This document shows positions 5,620 through 45,547 of a DNA stretch of 64,000 bases, piece after piece. Each line of letters starts with the position of its first letter. Position 1 is the first letter of the stretch. A program made the translations under genes and the position numbers. The notes under the pieces were generated by a model. The model saw only the letters and a program-made list of their open reading frames with translations, made no database searches and was not told where the DNA came from. The stretch comes from Subsaximicrobium wynnwilliamsii (GTDB lineage Bacteria; Bacteroidota; Bacteroidia; Flavobacteriales; Flavobacteriaceae): contig NZ_VORM01000008.1 of the NCBI RefSeq assembly GCF_007997225.1, positions 62,001-126,000 on the forward strand. Direction: 5' to 3'.

Positions 5620-5696
5620 AATGTTCAATGTTCAATGTTCAATGTTCAATGTTCAATGTTCAATGTTCAATGTTCAATGTTCAATGTTCAATGTTC
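5620..5696. repeat. Heptamer tandem repeat (AATGTTC)x11
   Basis: Eleven perfect copies of the 7-bp unit AATGTTC with no interruption, seven bases from the 5' end of tRNA-Arg. Perfect identity points to recent or continuing slippage. The reverse complement GAACATT belongs to the same TTGAACnTT word family found at 31.57, 44.4 and 48.06 kb. A tRNA-Arg promoter would have to lie within or beyond it. Confidence 0.97.
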
Positions 5697-5780
5697 AAAA
5701 ATATTCTTTTTAGATTCAATTTCCCTGTGTCGATGAAAAACTTATAAATTATTCTTGACAATTTGAGAATCCAATTCCAA

Positions 5781-10569: not shown

Positions 10570-11959
10570 GGCTCAAAGCTGTTTTAATGGATTTCACTTC
10601 CTCGCCAATATCTCCTGCGCCAAGGGTTAGAATAACGCTTGCTTCGGAAGACTTTACGACCTCAATCAACTGGGATTTCTCAATCAATGATTTGTTTTCA
10701 TTATCAATTTTATCCAACAGGTATTGTGAATTCACGCCTTCTATTGGCAATTCTCTGGCTGGGTAGATTTCTAAAAGCGCGATGTCATCAAATTGGGATA
10801 GGCTTTTCGCAAACTCATCGGCAAAATCACGGGTTCTACTGTATAAATGCGGTTGAAAAATGACCAACACCTTTTGCCCTGGATACATTTCCCTTACCGC
10901 TTGATGTACGGCATTGATTTCTTCAGGATGATGTGCATAATCGTCGATATAAACCAAGGTATCGGTCTTGATTTGGTATGAAAATCGACGTTTAACCCCT
11001 TTGTAAGACAATAAAGCCCCGGCGAGCTGCTGGTGAGGGATGCCATATTCTATAGACATCGCCAGGGCAATTAATGCATTAGACAAGTTATGTCTTCCAG
11101 GTAGGTTAAATTTGAAATCTTTAAGCAGCGCATTTGGTGTTTTCACATCAAATAGATAGCTACCATTTTCTATTTTTATATTTTTTACTGAATAATCTGA
11201 ATCGTCCTCAATCCCATAAGTGATGCCCTGTATTGGCAACCCGTTCTTTATAAAGAGTTTCCCATTAGGCTTGACTTTTTCTGAAAATGCCACAAACGAT
11301 TTTTGTAATTCTGAAGCATCGCCATAAATATCCAGGTGATCGGCATCCATGGAAGTGATGCAGGCAAAATCTGGGGAAAGCGTTAAAAAGGAGCGATCAA
11401 ATTCATCGGCTTCCACAACACTTACTTTGGTGCCACTGCTAATAAAGTTTGAATTGTAATTTTCACTGATGCCGCCTAAAAAGGCAGTGACTTCCACCCC
11501 ACATTGGTAGAGTAAATGCCCCAAGATACTGGTGGTGGTGGTTTTTCCGTGGGTGCCTGCCACCGCAAGACAGAAGCTTTGCTTGGTGATTTCGCCCAAT
11601 ACCACAGAACGCTTCATCAAGTGAAAGCCTTCGTCTTTGAAATAATTGAATTGCTTATGATGCTTCGGAATGGCGGGCGTATACACCACCAAGGTGTTCT
11701 CTTCATTCAAAAAGCTCGTGTCAACACTAGATATGTCATCCTCGAAATTCACGGAAACACCCAAGTCCACCAGTGCTGTAATAACATCGCTATTGGTCTT
11801 GTCATAACCCGCAACTTTTAAATCTTTTGCCACAAAATAGCGCGCCAGAGCAGACATACCTATGCCACCGATGCCGATGAAATAGATATGGGAAGCCCAT
11901 CCCTCCCCAAGGGGAAGGACTTGCTTATTGTTGTCTATTTTGTTTTCGCTATTCTTCAT
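10559..11959 (-). CDS. murC: UDP-N-acetylmuramate-L-alanine ligase MurC
   Basis: Cytoplasmic ATP-dependent ligase adding L-Ala to UDP-MurNAc. 466 residues. N-terminal Rossmann domain with [20 protein letters not shown] site [11 protein letters not shown] near 135, central Mur-ligase motif ([19 protein letters not shown]), and C-terminal domain with [12 protein letters not shown] and [10 protein letters not shown]. The first 30 or so residues are longer than usual. They include [10 protein letters not shown], encoded by a palindromic repeat (TCCCCAAGGGGA on the plus strand), and no ATG lies between the repeat and the core, so the repeat is translated. Overlaps the murG stop by four bases and ftsQ by eleven. 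Confidence 0.97.
11895..11920. repeat. Short palindromic repeat inside murC 5' coding region
   Basis: The core TCCCCAAGGGGA at 11904-11915 lies in frame within murC codons 15-25. The extended sequence, read on the minus strand (CCCCTTGGGGA then GGATGGGCTT), matches the copy at the murD start and resembles those before mraY, ftsW and murG. Confidence 0.85.
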
Positions 11960-13101
11960 AATCTATTAGTTTCTTCCGTTTGGGAAGACGGCAGATGGTT
12001 CCCTAATAATTTTTCGACCACATCTGCAATATCATTTGTGGCATTTGCCAAAGCCAATTTTTTTATATTTTTTGATAAGTGTTGTCTTCTTTCCGAAGAA
12101 GCAATCACTTCAGAAAACTGGGCTTTAAAATTGGCATCTAGCTCAGATTCCTTAATCATGATGGCTGCATCTTTACTGGCAATTGCCATCGCGTTCTTGC
12201 TTTGGTGGTCTTCGGCTACATTTGGCGACGGGATAAAAATCACGGGTTTCCCAACAACACACAACTCTGAAACCGAACTTGCGCCAGCTCTCGAAATAAT
12301 CACATCGGCCGCGGCATAAGCCAAATCCATTCTGTTTAGAAAAGGAAAAACCTCCACGTGCTCCAAGGCATTGTGCTTTTTATACTCCTCGTAATAGAGC
12401 TTGCCGCATTGCCAGATCATTTGGATATTGTTGGTCTCTAAAAAGACCAGTTCGTTTTCAATCAATTGGTTGATGCGCCTTGATCCCAAGCTTCCGCCCA
12501 AAACCAATAGAATCTGTTTGTTGGGCTTTAGCGTAAAAGCATCCTTGGCATCGGCTGTTTTTTCAGCTAAATCCAAAAGGTCCTTACGTATCGGATTTCC
12601 CGTAAGCACTAGCTTTTCCTTCGGAAAAAATCGCTCAAGACCTTCATAAGCGACACATATTTTATCTACTTTTTTACCCAATAGTTTATTGGTAATGCCC
12701 GGAAACGAATTTTGTTCCTGTATCAAACTCGGCACCTTTTTGGCTGTCGCCATTTGCAATAAGGGTCCGCTAGCGAAACCGCCAGTACCAATGGCAACAT
12801 CTGGTTTAAATGCTTTAATAATCTGTCTCGAACGCCATAAGCTCGAAATCAATTTGAATGGAAACGCAAGGTTTCTCAACGTCAGTTTTCGCTGAATCCC
12901 CGATATCCACAGGCCTTCAATCTCATAGCCTGCCTGCGGTACTTTCTCCATTTCCATACGGTCTTTCGCGCCCACAAACAGAAACTTCGCATTGGGAAAA
13001 CGCGATTTCAGCTCATCGGCAATAGCGATGGCAGGATAGATATGACCTCCTGTGCCGCCTCCGGAGAGGATGATTCTATATGGATGTTGCTTACTGATAA
13101 T
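11956..13101 (-). CDS. murG: MurG UDP-GlcNAc transferase, start codon unclear
   Basis: Peripheral membrane glycosyltransferase that converts lipid I to lipid II. The conserved N-terminal loop [19 protein letters not shown] lies upstream of the first GTG (12975), so translation must begin earlier. The frame is open back to a TAA at 13117-13119 with no ATG, GTG or TTG after it. The only candidates are ATT (13099-13101, used here, 381 aa) and ATC codons. An ATG with an A-rich leader lies at 13127-13129, but three copies of a 7-bp repeat put it out of frame. Other motifs: GTGGFASGP near 102, [14 protein letters not shown] near 128, and a C-terminal donor domain with [12 protein letters not shown] and [11 protein letters not shown]. 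Overlaps murC by four bases. Confidence 0.93.
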
Positions 13102-13121
13102 TTTAGATTTTAGATTTTAGA
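13101..13121. repeat. Heptamer repeat (TTTTAGA)x3 at the murG start
   Basis: Three perfect 7-bp copies lie between a plausible ATG (13127-13129) and the murG reading frame. With three copies the ATG frame stops after eight codons; with two copies it would run into murG with no stop. See the finding on murG. Confidence 0.95.
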
Positions 13122-13190
13122 TTACGCATTGTTTTTATTGATGCCACTACAATAGATAGCAACTCATTTGCTTCAGCCCATAGCCCCTTT

Positions 13191-13220
13191 TGTCCTACGG
13201 ACATTTCCCCAAAGGGGAAA
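13191..13220. repeat. Double hairpin repeat between ftsW and murG
   Basis: Two adjacent hairpins: TGTCC-TAC-GGACA (13191-13203) and TTTCCCC-AAA-GGGGAAA (13204-13220). They belong to the CCCC-TT(T)-GGGG repeat family seen at other junctions of this cluster. The rest of the 168-bp gap holds the heptamer repeat at 13101-13121. Confidence 0.85.
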
Positions 13221-13269
13221 ATATTTTCTATTTTAAAACTTCCAATATATAATATCAAACTTTTTACTT

Positions 13270-14469
13270 TCACAAAGCTTCACTCAAAACAGCCAATGGG
13301 TTATCGTCAAAGCTTTCCGCCTCCTTATCTTTATCTGCTTCACGTTTGGCACTCACACTTAAAACAATGCCAATGGCGAGGCAGGTCATCCAAATGGAGG
13401 TACCACCACTACTTATCAATGGCAGGGTTTGGCCAGTCACTGGAAACAATTCTACCGCAACAGCCATATTGATCAAGGCCTGAAATACAATGGGTAAACC
13501 AACGCCCAAAACCAATAACTTTCCAAAAACGGTATCCGATTTTTGGGACACAATCACAATCCTAAAGAGCAGCCAACAATACATAGCCAATAAGATGAGA
13601 CCGCCAACGAGCCCATACTCCTCAATGATAATTGCGAAAATGAAATCGGAAGACGATTGTGGCAAAAAGTTCTTTTGCTGACTCTTGCCTGGCCCGCGCC
13701 CAAAGATATCTCCTGAGGCAATCGCAATTTTGGCTTTCTCAATTTGGTAGTCGGCTTCCGTATCCACACCATTTGAGAAATTCTCAATTCGGCTCATCCA
13801 AGTATCAATACGGTTATCAATAGCCCCCGGAAACGCCTTCGCCACCAAGACAAACAAAGCCAAACTCAAAATGCCAATACCAATGATCACTGCTAAATAC
13901 CGTAAGGGATACCCCCCTATAAAGGCTAAAATCATGACCATCAAAAACATGATTGCCGTTGTTGAAAAATTTGCCGGCAAAATCAAGATTAACGTAAAGA
14001 ACACAGGCGCCCATAAAGGCAACAAGGTTTCAGTAAAGGTCACTTCCCGGTCTTGGATTTTAGACAAATAACGCGCTACATACACCATGAGCACCACCGC
14101 TGCCAAGGTGGAGGTTTGAAAAGACATCCCTACGAAAGGGATTTGAATCCATCTACTGGCATTGGCACCGTCAATTGTAGTGCCTTGAAGCATTGTCACC
14201 ACTAAAAGCACCAACACAATGGGCACCATAATCATAGACAAGCCCCTGAAATAGCGATATGGCACTTTATGCACACCATAGATGATTGCGAACCCCAAGA
14301 ACAAATGCATAAAATGCTTGACAAAAAAAGTAAAGGTATTATCTGAGCCACCCACGTAGGCCAAATTACTGGCGGCACTGTACACAGGTAGAAACGAGAA
14401 GATCGCCAGCAATGCTGCAATCGCCCAAATCAATCGATCTCCTTTTATATTTCTGAATATTTGCCCCAT
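13270..14469 (-). CDS. ftsW: Lipid II polymerase FtsW (SEDS family)
   Basis: Septal peptidoglycan glycosyltransferase. About ten membrane helices and the SEDS signature in the C-terminal half: FAIIIEEYGLVGGLILLAMY, NMAVAVELFPVTGQTLPLISSGGTSIWM. The ATG at 14469 (399 aa) is chosen; a GTG four codons upstream (14481) lies in a palindromic repeat. The TTG and GTG options upstream have no better leader. Partner by family: FtsI encoded at 18.9-20.9 kb in the same cluster. Confidence 0.96.
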   Translation of the reverse strand: MGQIFRNIKGDRLIWAIAALLAIFSFLPVYSAASNLAYVGGSDNTFTFFVKHFMHLFLGFAIIYGVHKVPYRYFRGLSMIMVPIVLVLLVVTMLQGTTIDGANASRWIQIPFVGMSFQTSTLAAVVLMVYVARYLSKIQDREVTFTETLLPLWAPVFFTLILILPANFSTTAIMFLMVMILAFIGGYPLRYLAVIIGIGILSLALFVLVAKAFPGAIDNRIDTWMSRIENFSNGVDTEADYQIEKAKIAIASGDIFGRGPGKSQQKNFLPQSSSDFIFAIIIEEYGLVGGLILLAMYCWLLFRIVIVSQKSDTVFGKLLVLGVGLPIVFQALINMAVAVELFPVTGQTLPLISSGGTSIWMTCLAIGIVLSVSAKREADKDKEAESFDDNPLAVLSEAL

Positions 14470-14601: not shown

Positions 14602-16026
14602 TTACAAATTCCTTACCGCATCCTTAAATTGACGCCCTCTATCTTCATAATTCTCAAACAGGTCGAAGCTTGCACAGGCTGGCGATAACAATACGCTGTC
14701 TCCGCTTTCAGCAATTTTGTAGGCTATTTTTACCGCTTCGCTCATGAATTGCGTTTCCACAATGGTATCTACCATATTGCCGAAATTCTCCATGAGTTTC
14801 TGGTTGTCTACGCCCAAACAAATGATCGCTTTTACCTTTTCATTCACAAACTGAAACAACTCTTGGTAATTATTGCCTTTATCTTGCCCACCAACGATCC
14901 ATACGGTTGGGCCATCCATACTATCAAGAGCGTAATACGTTGCATTGACGTTTGTTGCCTTAGAGTCGTTGATATACTGTACTTTATTGATTTTAAGCAC
15001 GTTTTCCAAACGATGTTCAACACCCTGAAAATTCTCAAGGCTCTCTCTAATGGTTTGCTTTCTTATTTTGAGCAAATGCGCCACCGTTGACGCAGCCATT
15101 GCATTTTTAATATTGTGTTTCCCTTCTAAGGCTAAATTTGCTGCTGACATAGTTATTTGATTATTATCTACTGTTATAATTATAGTGTTATTGTTATCTA
15201 AAAACGCTCCGTTCTCAATGGTCTTCTTCAATGAAAACGGGATCAATGTGGACTGAACCGGATGTGCTTCCAACCATGTTGTGATGACCTCATCATCGGC
15301 ATCATAAATAAGATAGTCCTCTGCGGTTTGGTTCTCTGCAATCCTGAATTTTGAGGCGATATAATTTTCAAATTGATAGTCATATCGATCCAAATGATCT
15401 GGGGTAATATTGAGCAAAACGGCTATGTGTGGCTTAAATGACTCTATATCGTCCAACTGAAAACTGCTAATCTCCAACACGTAATTTGGATAATCCTTAT
15501 CCAAAATCTGTTTGGCAAAACTCTCCCCAATATTACCCGCCAAACCCACTTCCAACTCTTGTTTTAAGAGGTGGTGTGTGAGACTTGCGGTTGTTGTTTT
15601 TCCGTTACTACCCGTTATGCCCACCAAAATTGCATTGGTGAATCGTGAGGCAAATTCAATTTCTGAAATGACCGGAATACCTTTGGCTCTGATTTGTTTC
15701 ACCAAATCGGCCTTATCTGGAATCCCAGGGCTTTTCATGATCAAATTGGCATTCAGAATTTTTTCTTCGGAATGTTTGCCTTCCTCAAATTCAATCTCAT
15801 GTTGTATAAGAACTTGCTTATATTTTTCTTTGATGCTGCCTTTATCTGAAACAAAAACTTCGTAACCATTGGCCTTGGCTAAAAGCGCGGTGCCGATACC
15901 GCTTTCTCCTGCGCCTAGAATCCCTAAATAAAAGCCCATTCCTAAATCCTTCCCCAAGGGGGACGGACTTTTCACTCTGCCGGGATTTATTGAGCTGCTC
16001 ATGTTTTCAATACTGTTCGATGACAT
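14602..16026 (-). CDS. murD: UDP-MurNAc-L-alanine-D-glutamate ligase MurD
   Basis: Cytoplasmic ATP-dependent ligase adding D-Glu. 474 residues from the first ATG. LGILGAGESGIGTALLAK begins the N-terminal domain, ITGSNGKTTTASL is the ATP site, followed by NITPDHLDRYDYQFENYIASK, YINDSKATNVNATYYAL and LSPACASFDLFENYEDRG. The family normally starts just before the LGAGESG motif, and an ATG at 15939 (reading MGFYLGILGAGESG) would fit. The 29 residues upstream of it include SPSPLGKDLG, encoded by a palindromic repeat. Either the repeat is translated or the start is 15939. The second option has an AAGGATTTAGGA leader and is slightly preferred. Confidence 0.96.
   Translation of the reverse strand: MSSNSIENMSSSINPGRVKSPSPLGKDLGMGFYLGILGAGESGIGTALLAKANGYEVFVSDKGSIKEKYKQVLIQHEIEFEEGKHSEEKILNANLIMKSPGIPDKADLVKQIRAKGIPVISEIEFASRFTNAILVGITGSNGKTTTASLTHHLLKQELEVGLAGNIGESFAKQILDKDYPNYVLEISSFQLDDIESFKPHIAVLLNITPDHLDRYDYQFENYIASKFRIAENQTAEDYLIYDADDEVITTWLEAHPVQSTLIPFSLKKTIENGAFLDNNNTIIITVDNNQITMSAANLALEGKHNIKNAMAASTVAHLLKIRKQTIRESLENFQGVEHRLENVLKINKVQYINDSKATNVNATYYALDSMDGPTVWIVGGQDKGNNYQELFQFVNEKVKAIICLGVDNQKLMENFGNMVDTIVETQFMSEAVKIAYKIAESGDSVLLSPACASFDLFENYEDRGRQFKDAVRNL
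15945..15965. repeat. Short palindromic repeat at the murD start
   Basis: TCCCCAAGGGGGA at 15951-15963, six bases or more upstream of the alternative ATG and inside the longer reading of murD. On the minus strand it reads CCCCTTGGGGAAGGATTTAGG then ATGGGCTT, closely matching the murC copy. Confidence 0.85.
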
Positions 16027-29366: not shown

Positions 29367-30146
29367 ATGTCCAAGAAACCGCTTATACTTGTCATTAATG
29401 ATGACGGCATTACCGCCCCAGGAATACGAACTTTAATCAAGGTCATGAACAGTATTGGCGACGTTGTTGTTGTGGCGCCCGATGGCCCTCAAAGCGGCAT
29501 GGGCCATGCGATTACTGTCAACTCCACCCTATTCATTGAAAAAATCACTGTAGATGATGGCCCTCAACAAGAATACAGTTGTTCTGGTACTCCAGCCGAT
29601 TGCGTGAAATTGGCCATTCGTGAGATATTGGACCGTAAACCAGATATATGCGTGTCTGGCATCAATCACGGCTCCAATGCCTCGATCAATGTGATTTACT
29701 CAGGCACCATGAGTGCTGCTTTAGAAGCTGGTATTGAAGGGATTCCCGCCATTGGCTTTTCACTTTGCAACTACAATTGGAACGCTAATTTTGAAGCCTG
29801 CAAGGCCGCAGTAAAAACCATTACCGAACAGGTGCTCAAAAATGGTTTGAATGAAGGTGTTGTGCTCAATGTAAACATCCCTAATCTCGAAGAAAAAGAC
29901 CTGAAAGGCATTAAAGTGTGCAGACAAGCCCGCGCCAATTGGGAAGAGGAATTTGACAAACGCCAGACCCCTTTTGGCAAGGATTATTACTGGCTTACGG
30001 GCAAATTTGTAAATCTTGATAAAGGCGAAGATACCGATCAGTGGGCTTTGGATCATGGCTATGTTTCCGTTGTTCCTGTTCAATTTGATTTGACTGCGCA
30101 CTCGAGTATTCAGCAGCTGAATTCTTGGGAATTGAATGGGAAATGA
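29367..30146 (+). CDS. surE: 5'/3'-nucleotidase SurE
   Basis: Metal-dependent nucleoside monophosphatase. 259 residues, family length. NDDGITAPGI at the N-terminus gives the metal-binding Asp pair, APDGPQSGMGHAIT near 38 holds the Ser/metal loop, SGTPADCVKLA near 73, and SGINHGSNASINVIYSGTMSAA near 96 supplies the conserved Asn. Divergent from prc. Directly followed by tandem repeats; no terminator is visible. Confidence 0.96.
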   Translation: MSKKPLILVINDDGITAPGIRTLIKVMNSIGDVVVVAPDGPQSGMGHAITVNSTLFIEKITVDDGPQQEYSCSGTPADCVKLAIREILDRKPDICVSGINHGSNASINVIYSGTMSAALEAGIEGIPAIGFSLCNYNWNANFEACKAAVKTITEQVLKNGLNEGVVLNVNIPNLEEKDLKGIKVCRQARANWEEEFDKRQTPFGKDYYWLTGKFVNLDKGEDTDQWALDHGYVSVVPVQFDLTAHSSIQQLNSWELNGK

Positions 30147-30205
30147 GGTTGAAGTTGAAGTTGAATTTGAAGTTGAATTTGAATTTGAACTTGAACTTGA
30201 ACTTG
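30147..30205. repeat. Hexamer repeat (TTGAAN) after surE
   Basis: About ten 6-bp units of the type GTTGAA, TTTGAA or CTTGAA begin immediately after the surE stop and lead into the large array. Confidence 0.9.
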
Positions 30206-31505
30206 AAAAAAGAATATAGAGGCTAGAGACTAGAATCTAGATGCTTTTGGATTTATAAGAACGTTTTTCAACTCGAATATGAAGTCTGTGGAAGTGTTTA
30301 TTCTGAAGGATTAGTTCTTGACATCATGATTGATTTTGAATTTAAAAAAAAGAACATAGAGACTAGAGACTAGAGTATAGATGCTTATGGATCAATAAAA
30401 GCCTTTTTTCTTTTAACTGAAAAATAAAGACTCTTAAAGTATTTATTCTGAAGGATTCGCACTTGACAACATTATTGAATTTGAACTTGAAAAAAGAATA
30501 TAGAGGCTAGAGACTAGAATCTAGATGCTTTTGGATTTATAAGAACGTTTTTCAACTCGAATATGAAGTCTGTGGAAGTGTTTATTCTGAAGGATTAGTT
30601 CTTGACATCATGATTGAATTTGAATTTGAAAAAAGAATATAGAGACTAGAGGCTAGAGGCTAGAGGCTAGAATATAGATGCTTATGGATCAATAAAAGCC
30701 TTTTTTCTCTTAACTGAAAAATAAAGACTATTGAAGTATTTATTCTGAAGGATTCGCACTTAACATCATTATTGAATTTGAACTTGAAAAAAGAATATAG
30801 AGACTAGAGGCTAGAATCTAGATGCTTTTGGATTTATAAGAACGTTTTTTCAACTCGAATATGAAGTCTGTGGAAGTGTTTATTCTGAAGGATTAGTTCT
30901 TGACATCATGATTGAATTTGAATTTGAAAAAAGAATATAGAGGCTAGGGACTAGAAGCTAGAGGCTAGAGGCTAGAGGCTAGAATATAGAATATAGATGC
31001 TTATGGATCAATAAAAGCCTTTTTCTTTTAATTGAAAAATAAAGACTCTTAAAGTATTTATTCTGAAGGATTCGCACTTAACATCATTATTGAATTTGAA
31101 CTTGAAAAAAGAATATAGAGACTAGAGGCTAGAATCTAGATGCTTTTGGATTTATAAGAACGTTTTTCAACTCGAATATGAAGTCTGTGGAAGTGTTTAT
31201 TCTGAAGGATTAGTTCTTGACATCATGATTGATTTTGAATTTGAATTTGAATTTGAAAAAAAATATAGAGGCTAGAGACTAGAATCTAGATGCTTTTGGA
31301 TTTATAAGAACGTTTTTCAACTCGAATATGAAGTCTGTGGAATTGCTTATTCTGAAGGATTAGTTCTTAACATCATGATTGAACTTGAATTTGAAAAAAG
31401 AACATAGAGAGGCTAGAGACTAGAACATAGAGGCTTTTGCATTAATAAGAACGTCTTAGTATCAATTGAAATATGAAGTCTTTGGAAGTGTTTTATTCTA
31501 AAGCG
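30205..31505. repeat. Higher-order tandem array, nine 138-178 bp units
   Basis: Two related unit types alternate as A-B-A-B-A-B-A-A-A. Starts are near 30205 (A), 30344 (B), 30489 (A), 30628 (B), 30786 (A), 30926 (B), 31104 (A), 31255 (A) and 31393 (A, diverged). Each unit begins GAAAAAAGAATATAGAG, then holds heptamers (GGCTAGA/GACTAGA), then GATGCTT..GGAT, a unique middle, TTTATTCTGAAGGATT, TGACATCAT and a hexamer tail (TTTGAA). Length differences come from the copy number of the heptamers and hexamers. No ORF of note and no spacers. Confidence 0.95.
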
Positions 31506-31570
31506 AAAATAGGGACTATCACCGGTTGACCGCTTAGTAGTGACCTAAGACAACGAAAATGAAACCACAA

Positions 31571-31637
31571 CTCGAATCCTGAACCTTGAATTTTGAACCT
31601 TGAACTTCAAACCTTGAATAACAACAACAACAACAAC
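31571..31637. repeat. TTGAACC-type and (AAC)6 repeats before lpxB
   Basis: Degenerate heptamers (GAACCTTGAA, TTTTGAACC, TTGAACTT, AACCTTGAA) run to 31619, then six AAC triplets (31620-31637) end six bases before the lpxB ATG and replace a normal ribosome-binding region. Confidence 0.85.
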
Positions 31638-31642
31638 GACGC

Positions 31643-32761
31643 ATGAAATACTACCTTATCGCTGGCGAGGCCTCTGGAGATTTACATGGATCCAATTTAA
31701 TGAAGGCATTACAACAAGAAGATGTGAATGCCGAATTTAGATTTTGGGGTGGTGATTTGATGGCATCGGTTGGCGGTACATTGGTGACGCACTATAAGGA
31801 ACGCTCATTCATGGGTTTTGCCGAAGTGCTGTTCAACCTGCGTGCGATTTTGGGTTTTATCAAATTCTGCAAACAGGATATCCAAAACTATCATCCAGAT
31901 GTGATTGTGTTTATAGATAATTCCGGATTCAACCTGCGCATTGCCAAGTGGGCAAAACAGCGGCATTACAGAACCCATTACTACATTTCGCCACAAGTTT
32001 GGGCATCTCGCGCCAGCAGGGTTACAGCCATCAAACGTGACATTGATGCCATGCATGTGATTCTTCCGTTTGAGAAGGCGTTCTATGAAAAATATGATTA
32101 TGAGGTCAATTTTGTTGGTCATCCGCTCATCGATGCCATTGCCAACAGAACCCAAATTGGCGAACATGCCTTCAGAAAAAAATATGGTCTCAACGACAAA
32201 CCCATCATCGCTTTATTGCCAGGAAGCAGAAAACAGGAAATCACCAAGATGCTGGGTGTGATGTTGAGCGTGGTCAATGATTTTAGGGATTACCAATTCG
32301 TGATTGCTGGTGCGCCAAGTCAGGATTATGAATTTTACAAACCCTTTATCAAGGAAAACAAGGTCTCCTATATCCCCAATAAAACCTATGATTTATTGAG
32401 CGTATCATTTGCAGCCTTGGTAACCTCGGGCACCGCAACTTTAGAGACTGCCTTGTTTAAAGTGCCTCAAGTGGTTTGCTACAAAGCCAATGCCATATCC
32501 TATCAAATAGCCAAACGCATCATTACCTTAAAATACATCTCATTGGTCAACTTGATCATGGATCGTGAAGTGGTTACCGAATTGATACAAAGCGATCTCA
32601 ACAGCGAAGGTCTTAAGAAGGAACTACGTAAAATTTTAGACGATGAAGAGCGTGATCGCTTATTCCTGGAGTATTATGAATTGGAGAAAAAACTCGGCGG
32701 AAAAGGTGCCAGTGCAAAAGCAGCAAAATTTATATTTGACGATGCTAAATCTTCTACCTAA
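31643..32761 (+). CDS. lpxB: Lipid-A-disaccharide synthase LpxB
   Basis: Membrane-associated glycosyltransferase joining UDP-2,3-diacyl-GlcN and lipid X. 372 residues. MKYYLIAGEASGDLHGSNLM at the N-terminus, FIDNSGFNLRIAK near 90, YYISPQVWASR near 114, LLPGSRKQEI near 190 and SGTATLETALF near 260 are family signatures. The ATG at 31643 follows an AAC repeat leader. In many flavobacteria surE and lpxB are neighbours, so the 1.5 kb of repeats has expanded a normally short gap. Confidence 0.97.
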   Translation: MKYYLIAGEASGDLHGSNLMKALQQEDVNAEFRFWGGDLMASVGGTLVTHYKERSFMGFAEVLFNLRAILGFIKFCKQDIQNYHPDVIVFIDNSGFNLRIAKWAKQRHYRTHYYISPQVWASRASRVTAIKRDIDAMHVILPFEKAFYEKYDYEVNFVGHPLIDAIANRTQIGEHAFRKKYGLNDKPIIALLPGSRKQEITKMLGVMLSVVNDFRDYQFVIAGAPSQDYEFYKPFIKENKVSYIPNKTYDLLSVSFAALVTSGTATLETALFKVPQVVCYKANAISYQIAKRIITLKYISLVNLIMDREVVTELIQSDLNSEGLKKELRKILDDEERDRLFLEYYELEKKLGGKGASAKAAKFIFDDAKSST

Positions 32762-44031: not shown

Positions 44032-44035
44032 ATGA

Positions 44036-44400
44036 ACTTGAAATTGAAATTGAAATTGAAATTGAAATTGAAGCTGAACTGAAGATGAAGATGAAGATGA
44101 AGACGAAGACGAAGACGAAGACGAAGACGAAGATGAACTTGAACTTGAAATTGAAATTGAACTGAAGATGAAGATGAAGACGAAGATGAAGATGAAGATG
44201 AATTGAAATTGAAATTGAAATTGAAGATGAACTGAAGATGAAGATGAAGACGAAGATGATCCCGATAGCTATCGGGAGAACTTGAAATTGAAATTGAAGC
44301 TGGACTGAAGATGAAGACGAAGATGAAGATGAAGATGAAGATGAAGATGAAGATGAAATTGAACTGAAGATGAGGATGAAGATGAAGATGAAGATGAATT
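44036..44400. repeat. Hexamer/trimer microsatellite (GAAATT, GAAGAT, GAAGAC)
   Basis: About 365 bp of blocks such as (GAAATT)n, (GAAGAT)n and (GAAGAC)n follow the HMG-CoA reductase stop, with an 18-bp palindrome embedded at 44260-44277. Purine-rich on the plus strand throughout. No RNA gene or terminator is seen. Confidence 0.93.
44260..44277. repeat. Perfect 18-bp palindrome TCCCGATAGCTATCGGGA
   Basis: Exact inverted repeat inserted in the GAAGAT microsatellite; a degenerate copy lies at 14572-14589. Confidence 0.92.
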
Positions 44401-44404
44401 AAAA

Positions 44405-44470
44405 CTTGAATATTGAACTTTGAACTTTGAACTCGAAACTTTAAACCCGGAACCTTGAACCAAGTACCCG
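44405..44470. repeat. TTGAACT heptamers running into the GHMP kinase start
   Basis: Units TTGAATA, TTGAACT, TTGAACT, then diverged AACCCGGAACCTTGAACC. The motif ACCCGAAACC at 44466-44475 recurs at 48090-48099, next to the same heptamers, so the repeat unit extends into the first codons of the gene. Confidence 0.8.

Positions 44471-45396: not shown

Positions 45397-45547
<151 letters not shown>

Follow-up and report, generated by a model that had tools for sequence, protein, structure and literature searches.

Two described systems come close in sequence layout. The intervening sequences of 23S rRNA can carry an S23p/IVP gene, as is known for example in Coxiella, and their complementary ends can form a closing stem (passages of PMC4990558). 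Tandem repeats of the heptamer TAACTGA occur in Beggiatoaceae, Cyanobacteria and some Bacteroidetes, where they stand just upstream of start codons (passages of PMC4679880); the words intervening, four helix and S23 are absent from its main text. No description of IVP genes joined with heptamer arrays, nor of a murG gene starting at AUU, was found in the open-licence PMC literature, among the matches listed. How then does a heptamer array come to stand directly ahead of murG, and where does murG begin?

The DNA analysed, hereafter the window, is the whole stretch of 64,000 nucleotides from Subsaximicrobium wynnwilliamsii. In the region of interest the genes are read on the minus strand, where ftsW ends at 13270 and is followed by murG. 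The features are as follows.

11956..13101, minus strand: murG, read from ATT 13101-13099 to its stop, with ATC 13098-13096 as the alternative start (sequence, TIGR01133)
13096..13101, minus strand: ATT ATC, the codons proposed as starts, which precede the GGTGGH motif by 14 and 13 codons (comparison with relatives)
13100..13123, minus strand: heptamer array with AATCTAA units on the sense strand, probably the right arm left by an IVP cassette that has decayed (repeat scan, layout in relatives)
13103..13273, minus strand: open frame of 56 codons, its GTG overlapping the ftsW stop (GTGA) and its TAA 1 base before ATT (scripted translation)
13112..13189, minus strand: remnant of the C-terminus of a PF05635-type IVP, sharing 22 of 26 residues with the IVP at locus L049 (alignment)
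13127..13129, minus strand: the ATG of a preliminary description of this DNA, which codes the Met within SIKTMRN of the IVP tail (alignment)
13182..13221, no strand assigned: palindrome-rich stretch in the place expected for the IVP gene body, with limits set by eye (letters)
13270..13272, minus strand: stop codon of ftsW (ORF list)

The product of the downstream gene is MurG by profile match: for TIGR01133 it scores 296.8 bits, the cut-off being 250.25. It is the only murG match in the source genome, G000, at E <= 0.001, and a second copy was therefore rejected as a candidate. Read 5' to 3', the murG frame runs TAA (13119-13117), AAT CTA AAA TCT AAA, ATT, ATC, AGT AAG CAA CAT CCA TAT. The preliminary description had stated that no in-frame ATG, GTG or TTG lies ahead of the MurG N-terminus, and this is borne out up to the GGTGGH motif; the five sense codons between the in-frame TAA and ATT had been omitted there. 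It had also pointed to an ATG at 13129-13127 that is out of the murG frame and runs into a TAA (13105-13103) after eight codons, and to the removal of one 7-bp unit as a change that would join the frame of this ATG to murG. On both counts reading of the letters gives the same answer. The ORF list puts murG at GTG 12975, a start that was rejected because the GGTGGH motif would be dropped; gene callers limited to ATG, GTG and TTG would misplace starts of the kind proposed here. A search of 12800-13500 for known RNA families found none at E up to 1.

The array at 13100-13123 has a period of 7 and 3.4 copies with a 100% match. It is beyond chance expectation, as 100 shuffles of the window gave 0 matches to it with up to 3 mismatches allowed. 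Its 21-base sequence has one exact copy in the genome, in addition to two places with 2 mismatches. The search for a left arm in the window gave none: the best score was 14, and 12900-13400 has 0 inverted pairs. For this reason we infer, rather than observe, that the array is a right arm. The other heptamer arrays of the window gave 0 inverted pairs in four further regions and 2 pairs in 30000-32500. Since arrays in the window can stand without an inverted partner, an array alone is no proof of an IVP cassette. Several further arrays of the window may be described here. At 44033-44461, hexamer and heptamer arrays run up to a likely GHMP-type kinase gene (named from the letters), the frame of which, judged by eye, seems to begin at a TTG that lies within the last heptamers. 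Tandem units of about 150 bases, with TAGANNN heptamers and TTGAANN repeats, occupy 30120-31637 upstream of a likely lpxB (also named from the letters). The heptamer AATGTTC is repeated in 11.3 perfect copies at 5620-5698, adjoining what by eye is a likely tRNA gene, and an array of the AGACTGG type with about 20 copies (45402-45546) is followed by a terminator-like hairpin, again by eye.

Is the lack of a canonical start peculiar to this murG? To this end 253 murG loci were examined, from relatives (30), named genomes (80), relatives of genome G024 (23 new) and family genomes (120 of 155; of the 35 remaining, 22 were already in the sample and 13 were left out). After 16 duplicates were removed, 237 unique loci remained. 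A canonical codon stands 6-25 codons before GGTGGH in 233 of them, the nearest one being ATG in 113, GTG in 100 and TTG in 20, and in relatives it is mostly found 10, 11, 13 or 14 codons before the motif. The four loci without ATG, GTG or TTG are that of the window (L004) and L031, L264 and L268. All four have ATT 12, 13 or 14 codons before GGTGGH, while ATT is present at 11-14 codons in 23 of the 233 others; the chance of meeting it in four of four is about 1.4e-4 by a hand calculation in which the positions were chosen after seeing the data. By eye, no heptamer array is seen in the 90 bases before murG of L031, L264 and L268. As a control, murC was taken at every unique locus that contained its motif preceded by sufficient sequence, and 0 of 130 lack a canonical start; the difference between 4/237 and 0/130 is not significant by itself. 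In the window's murG the stretch from the upstream stop to the conserved N-terminus has no canonical start, and ATT and ATC stand where relatives start. The weak non-canonical start that the preliminary description had listed among its possibilities is thus supported, both by this position and by the three other genomes. AUU serves as the start of infC in other organisms. In G000 the infC frame (L206) has no ATG, GTG or TTG from the upstream stop to the family match, and ATA codons are present there.

The spacer between ftsW and murG keeps a trace of another gene. Residues 29-54 of the 56-codon frame align with the tail of the L049 IVP at 22 of 26 identical positions (E 5e-12), with a local score of 94, where the best of 2000 shuffles reached 46; a Pfam scan of a 33-residue form of the remnant gave no match. 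What is missing in the window compared with relatives is most of the IVP gene. The 56-codon frame itself may well be translated in the cell. A 32-base part of the palindrome-rich stretch recurs, 94% alike, at another place in the genome. As this partial copy is the one further match at E <= 0.001, the stretch was rejected as a high-copy repeat. Another palindrome of the window, CCCC-AAGGGG at 11885-11925, codes part of the murC N-terminal extension (VLPLGEGW), and a similar stretch, SPSPLGKDLGMG, is seen by eye near the murD start at about 15930-15980.

In some relatives the gene is whole. An IVP gene lies between ftsW and murG in 6 of the 237 unique murG loci (L038, L049, L054, L085, L091 and L227), as found by a core pattern in the 480 bases before the GGTGGH motif, a search by which others could be missed. 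In the first five, the spacer gene has 117-118 residues and ends in ASIKTMRNRKS or ASIKTMRKRKS, and the order in the spacer is IVP gene, then heptamers, then murG start. The spacers of these five IVP-bearing relatives were examined in full, and in 5/5 the murG start follows the last heptamer or falls within it; in L227, by eye, the in-frame GTG lies inside the array. Both of the two IVP proteins of this site that were scanned score above the PF05635 (23S_rRNA_IVP) cut-off, and the five IVP proteins are 81-95% identical with dN/dS of 0.056-0.096. The arms at this site exceed the best of 500 shuffles in L049, L085 and L091 but not in L038 and L054; the lowest-energy fold of each of the latter two cassettes pairs its two ends (by eye). 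Other long ftsW-murG spacers, such as L055 and L071, have no IVP gene. We also met L064, with paired arms (score 31 against a shuffle maximum of 28) and no IVP gene; L037, with right-arm-like heptamers whose halves are unpaired (score 10 against a shuffle maximum of 20); and L005 of genome G003, which has a TTG start and, by eye, heptamers like those of a left arm. We read these three as other stages of cassette decay.

Is the arrangement particular to the ftsW-murG site? Matches to PF05635 were found in 21 of 37 relatives and in 48 of 60 class-wide genomes, with G000 counted in both sets. G000 itself has 10 such genes, and four of them (L140, L141, L145 and L146) lie within about 14 kb at C45:48755-62460, beside genes that, by their first residues, may be a phenylacetate (paa) operon. 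By eye, the flanks of IVP genes often have short tandem arrays, and the downstream array resembles the reverse complement of the upstream array. This was quantified by locally aligning the 220 bases ahead of the IVP gene with the 220 bases that follow it, the latter in reverse complement. In a first set, 37 of 38 loci were used (L168 was dropped at a contig end), and the median score is 27 for matched flanks against 18 for mismatched ones; matched scores are at 20 or near, the background level, in 6 of the 37, and L149, L152, L167 and L174 are examples of background. For the class-wide set, 27 of 29 loci were used (L177 and L178 were dropped at contig ends), and the matched median is 39 against 17.5 for mismatched flanks and 17 in 108 same-locus windows, with 24 of the 27 above the 95th percentile of the control. 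Over all 64 loci the matched scores sum to 2081, compared with 1191 under permutation (sd 30.6, maximum 1361 of 20,000 permutations), and the matched pair ranks first in 34. Inverted similarity of the flanks is above direct similarity in 54 loci and below it in 8. In G000 alone (10 loci, the complete set), the matched sum was reached by 0 of 100,000 permutations. At a lag of 7 the flanks have a mean identity of 0.401 and control windows one of 0.251, and the array sequences differ from locus to locus. It should be noticed that the loci are those which each search returned, mostly the best-scoring and not random, and that the controls come from IVP loci only, the same-locus windows being mostly coding. 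Arm complementarity is thereby established for the 64 IVP loci of Bacteroidia taken together.

Folds with 15 or more end pairs are obtained for 48 of 64 matched loci, and for 28 of 64 when the right flank is swapped. The mean duplex energy of the 37 matched flanks is -39.3 against -30.9 for mismatched ones and beats all 20,000 permutations, but it is not below that of 148 same-locus windows (-41.7). Because equally low energies are reached in other parts of these loci, duplex energy is a weak test of the arms. As to orientation, with neighbours taken as the longest open frames on either side and not as annotated genes, both neighbours run in the direction of the IVP gene in 34 of 37 loci of the first set and 19 of 27 class-wide, 53 of 64 in all; one IVP gene is antisense to both neighbours and ten are mixed. 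The intact cassette is an IVP gene, usually in sense between co-directional genes, with a period-7 array on either side, the one array being the reverse complement of the other, and it is found class-wide.

One explanation for the matching arms is a DNA-level process, such as template switching or inverted duplication of the arrays, with no role of the RNA. We regard this as possible though somewhat doubtful. In its favour, the arms have no excess of G.U over A.C mismatches (90 vs 102, p 0.43, counted in the 50 of 64 elements with a score of 30 or more), so that the asymmetry which would have pointed to selection acting on the sense RNA was not seen. The G.U share is nevertheless above its permuted value (0.181 vs 0.136, sd 0.015), the A.C share less so (0.206 vs 0.191, sd 0.017), and the preference for the sense orientation also argues against a process confined to DNA, although the need for a host promoter would explain that preference as well.

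Taken together, the comparisons make it likely that an IVP cassette has decayed in the window and left the array as its right arm, and that murG probably starts at AUU or AUC, probably by reinitiation. An IVP cassette would once have stood between ftsW and murG in an ancestor and decayed from the intact state. Most of the IVP gene and the left arm would have been lost, the last 26 codons being kept inside the 56-codon frame, and the array would be the surviving right arm. Ribosomes ending the remnant frame may then start again at once at AUU (13101) or AUC (13098). For Bacteroidia at large we propose, tentatively, a class-wide family of messenger-borne IVP cassettes in operons, with arrays that are locus-specific yet complementary. 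The right arm would supply or hide the start of the next gene, and decay could leave an AUU or AUC start, as at murG; we give this wider scenario a little less than an even chance. These cassettes resemble 23S rRNA intervening sequences moved into messenger RNA, and one may guess that the paired arms are processed in the RNA.

Then could the start of murG be explained otherwise? The preliminary description had suggested that the copy number varies and that slippage tunes the gene. In this explanation, whether MurG is switched or tuned, one unit less would let the ATG at 13129 open murG, so that copy number sets the output. A 7-bp unit does shift the frame, and the array has 3.4 perfect copies. 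However, this ATG codes an internal Met in an IVP tail that is conserved in relatives, and the five IVP-bearing relatives start murG downstream of the array or inside its end; for these two reasons slippage is not supported. By comparison with the same five, the repeat would not lie between the start in use and the gene, the start in the window being taken as the proposed ATT or ATC. Nor was such an array seen by eye at the other three murG loci without a canonical start. MurG is essential, and the off state would therefore be costly. We consider slippage highly improbable, the least credible of the explanations weighed here.

Two other explanations fare little better. A sequencing or assembly error, in which a wrong base or unit conceals an ordinary start, seems unlikely to us; a surplus unit was the third possibility named in the preliminary description. 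The genome is a draft of 132 contigs, ATC is one base from ATG, and several relatives start with ATG AGT; on the other side, a 24-base array is short relative to a read, the same kind of start is found in four genomes, and no murC start fails the same kind of test. Less probable than an error, though slightly more probable than slippage, is a +1 frameshift that takes ribosomes from the 56-codon frame into murG. The remnant frame is indeed open as far as the TAA beside murG, but by eye no known slippery motif is seen, and the IVP-bearing relatives have a plain murG start after or at the IVP stop.

If a near-cognate start following decay of the cassette is the right reading, it suggests that an essential gene can run on such a codon. 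The cassettes also give PF05635, a poorly understood family, a consistent genomic setting outside rRNA and a candidate RNA structure. How do they compare with the systems already known? Like phase-variable simple repeats at gene starts, the murG locus has, close to a start codon, a repeat unit whose length is no multiple of three; unlike there, the upstream ATG belongs to the remnant of another gene. Like infC started at AUU, it would have a near-cognate start in an essential gene, but the gene is murG and such loci number 4 of 237. With the TAACTGA repeats, as presented in passages of PMC4679880, it shares tandem heptamers just ahead of start codons, while the unit is another one and the IVP arrays are inverted pairs around a gene. 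With the 23S rRNA intervening sequences, as far as passages of PMC4990558 describe them, the cassettes share an S23p/IVP-type gene, bordered by complementary ends over the 64 loci as a whole and, at the ftsW-murG site, in three of the five relatives scored; the IVP (PF05635) gene is present in relatives, and the window keeps its 26-residue tail only. Unlike those sequences, the cassettes stand between protein genes, here ftsW and murG, and their ends are locus-specific period-7 arrays.
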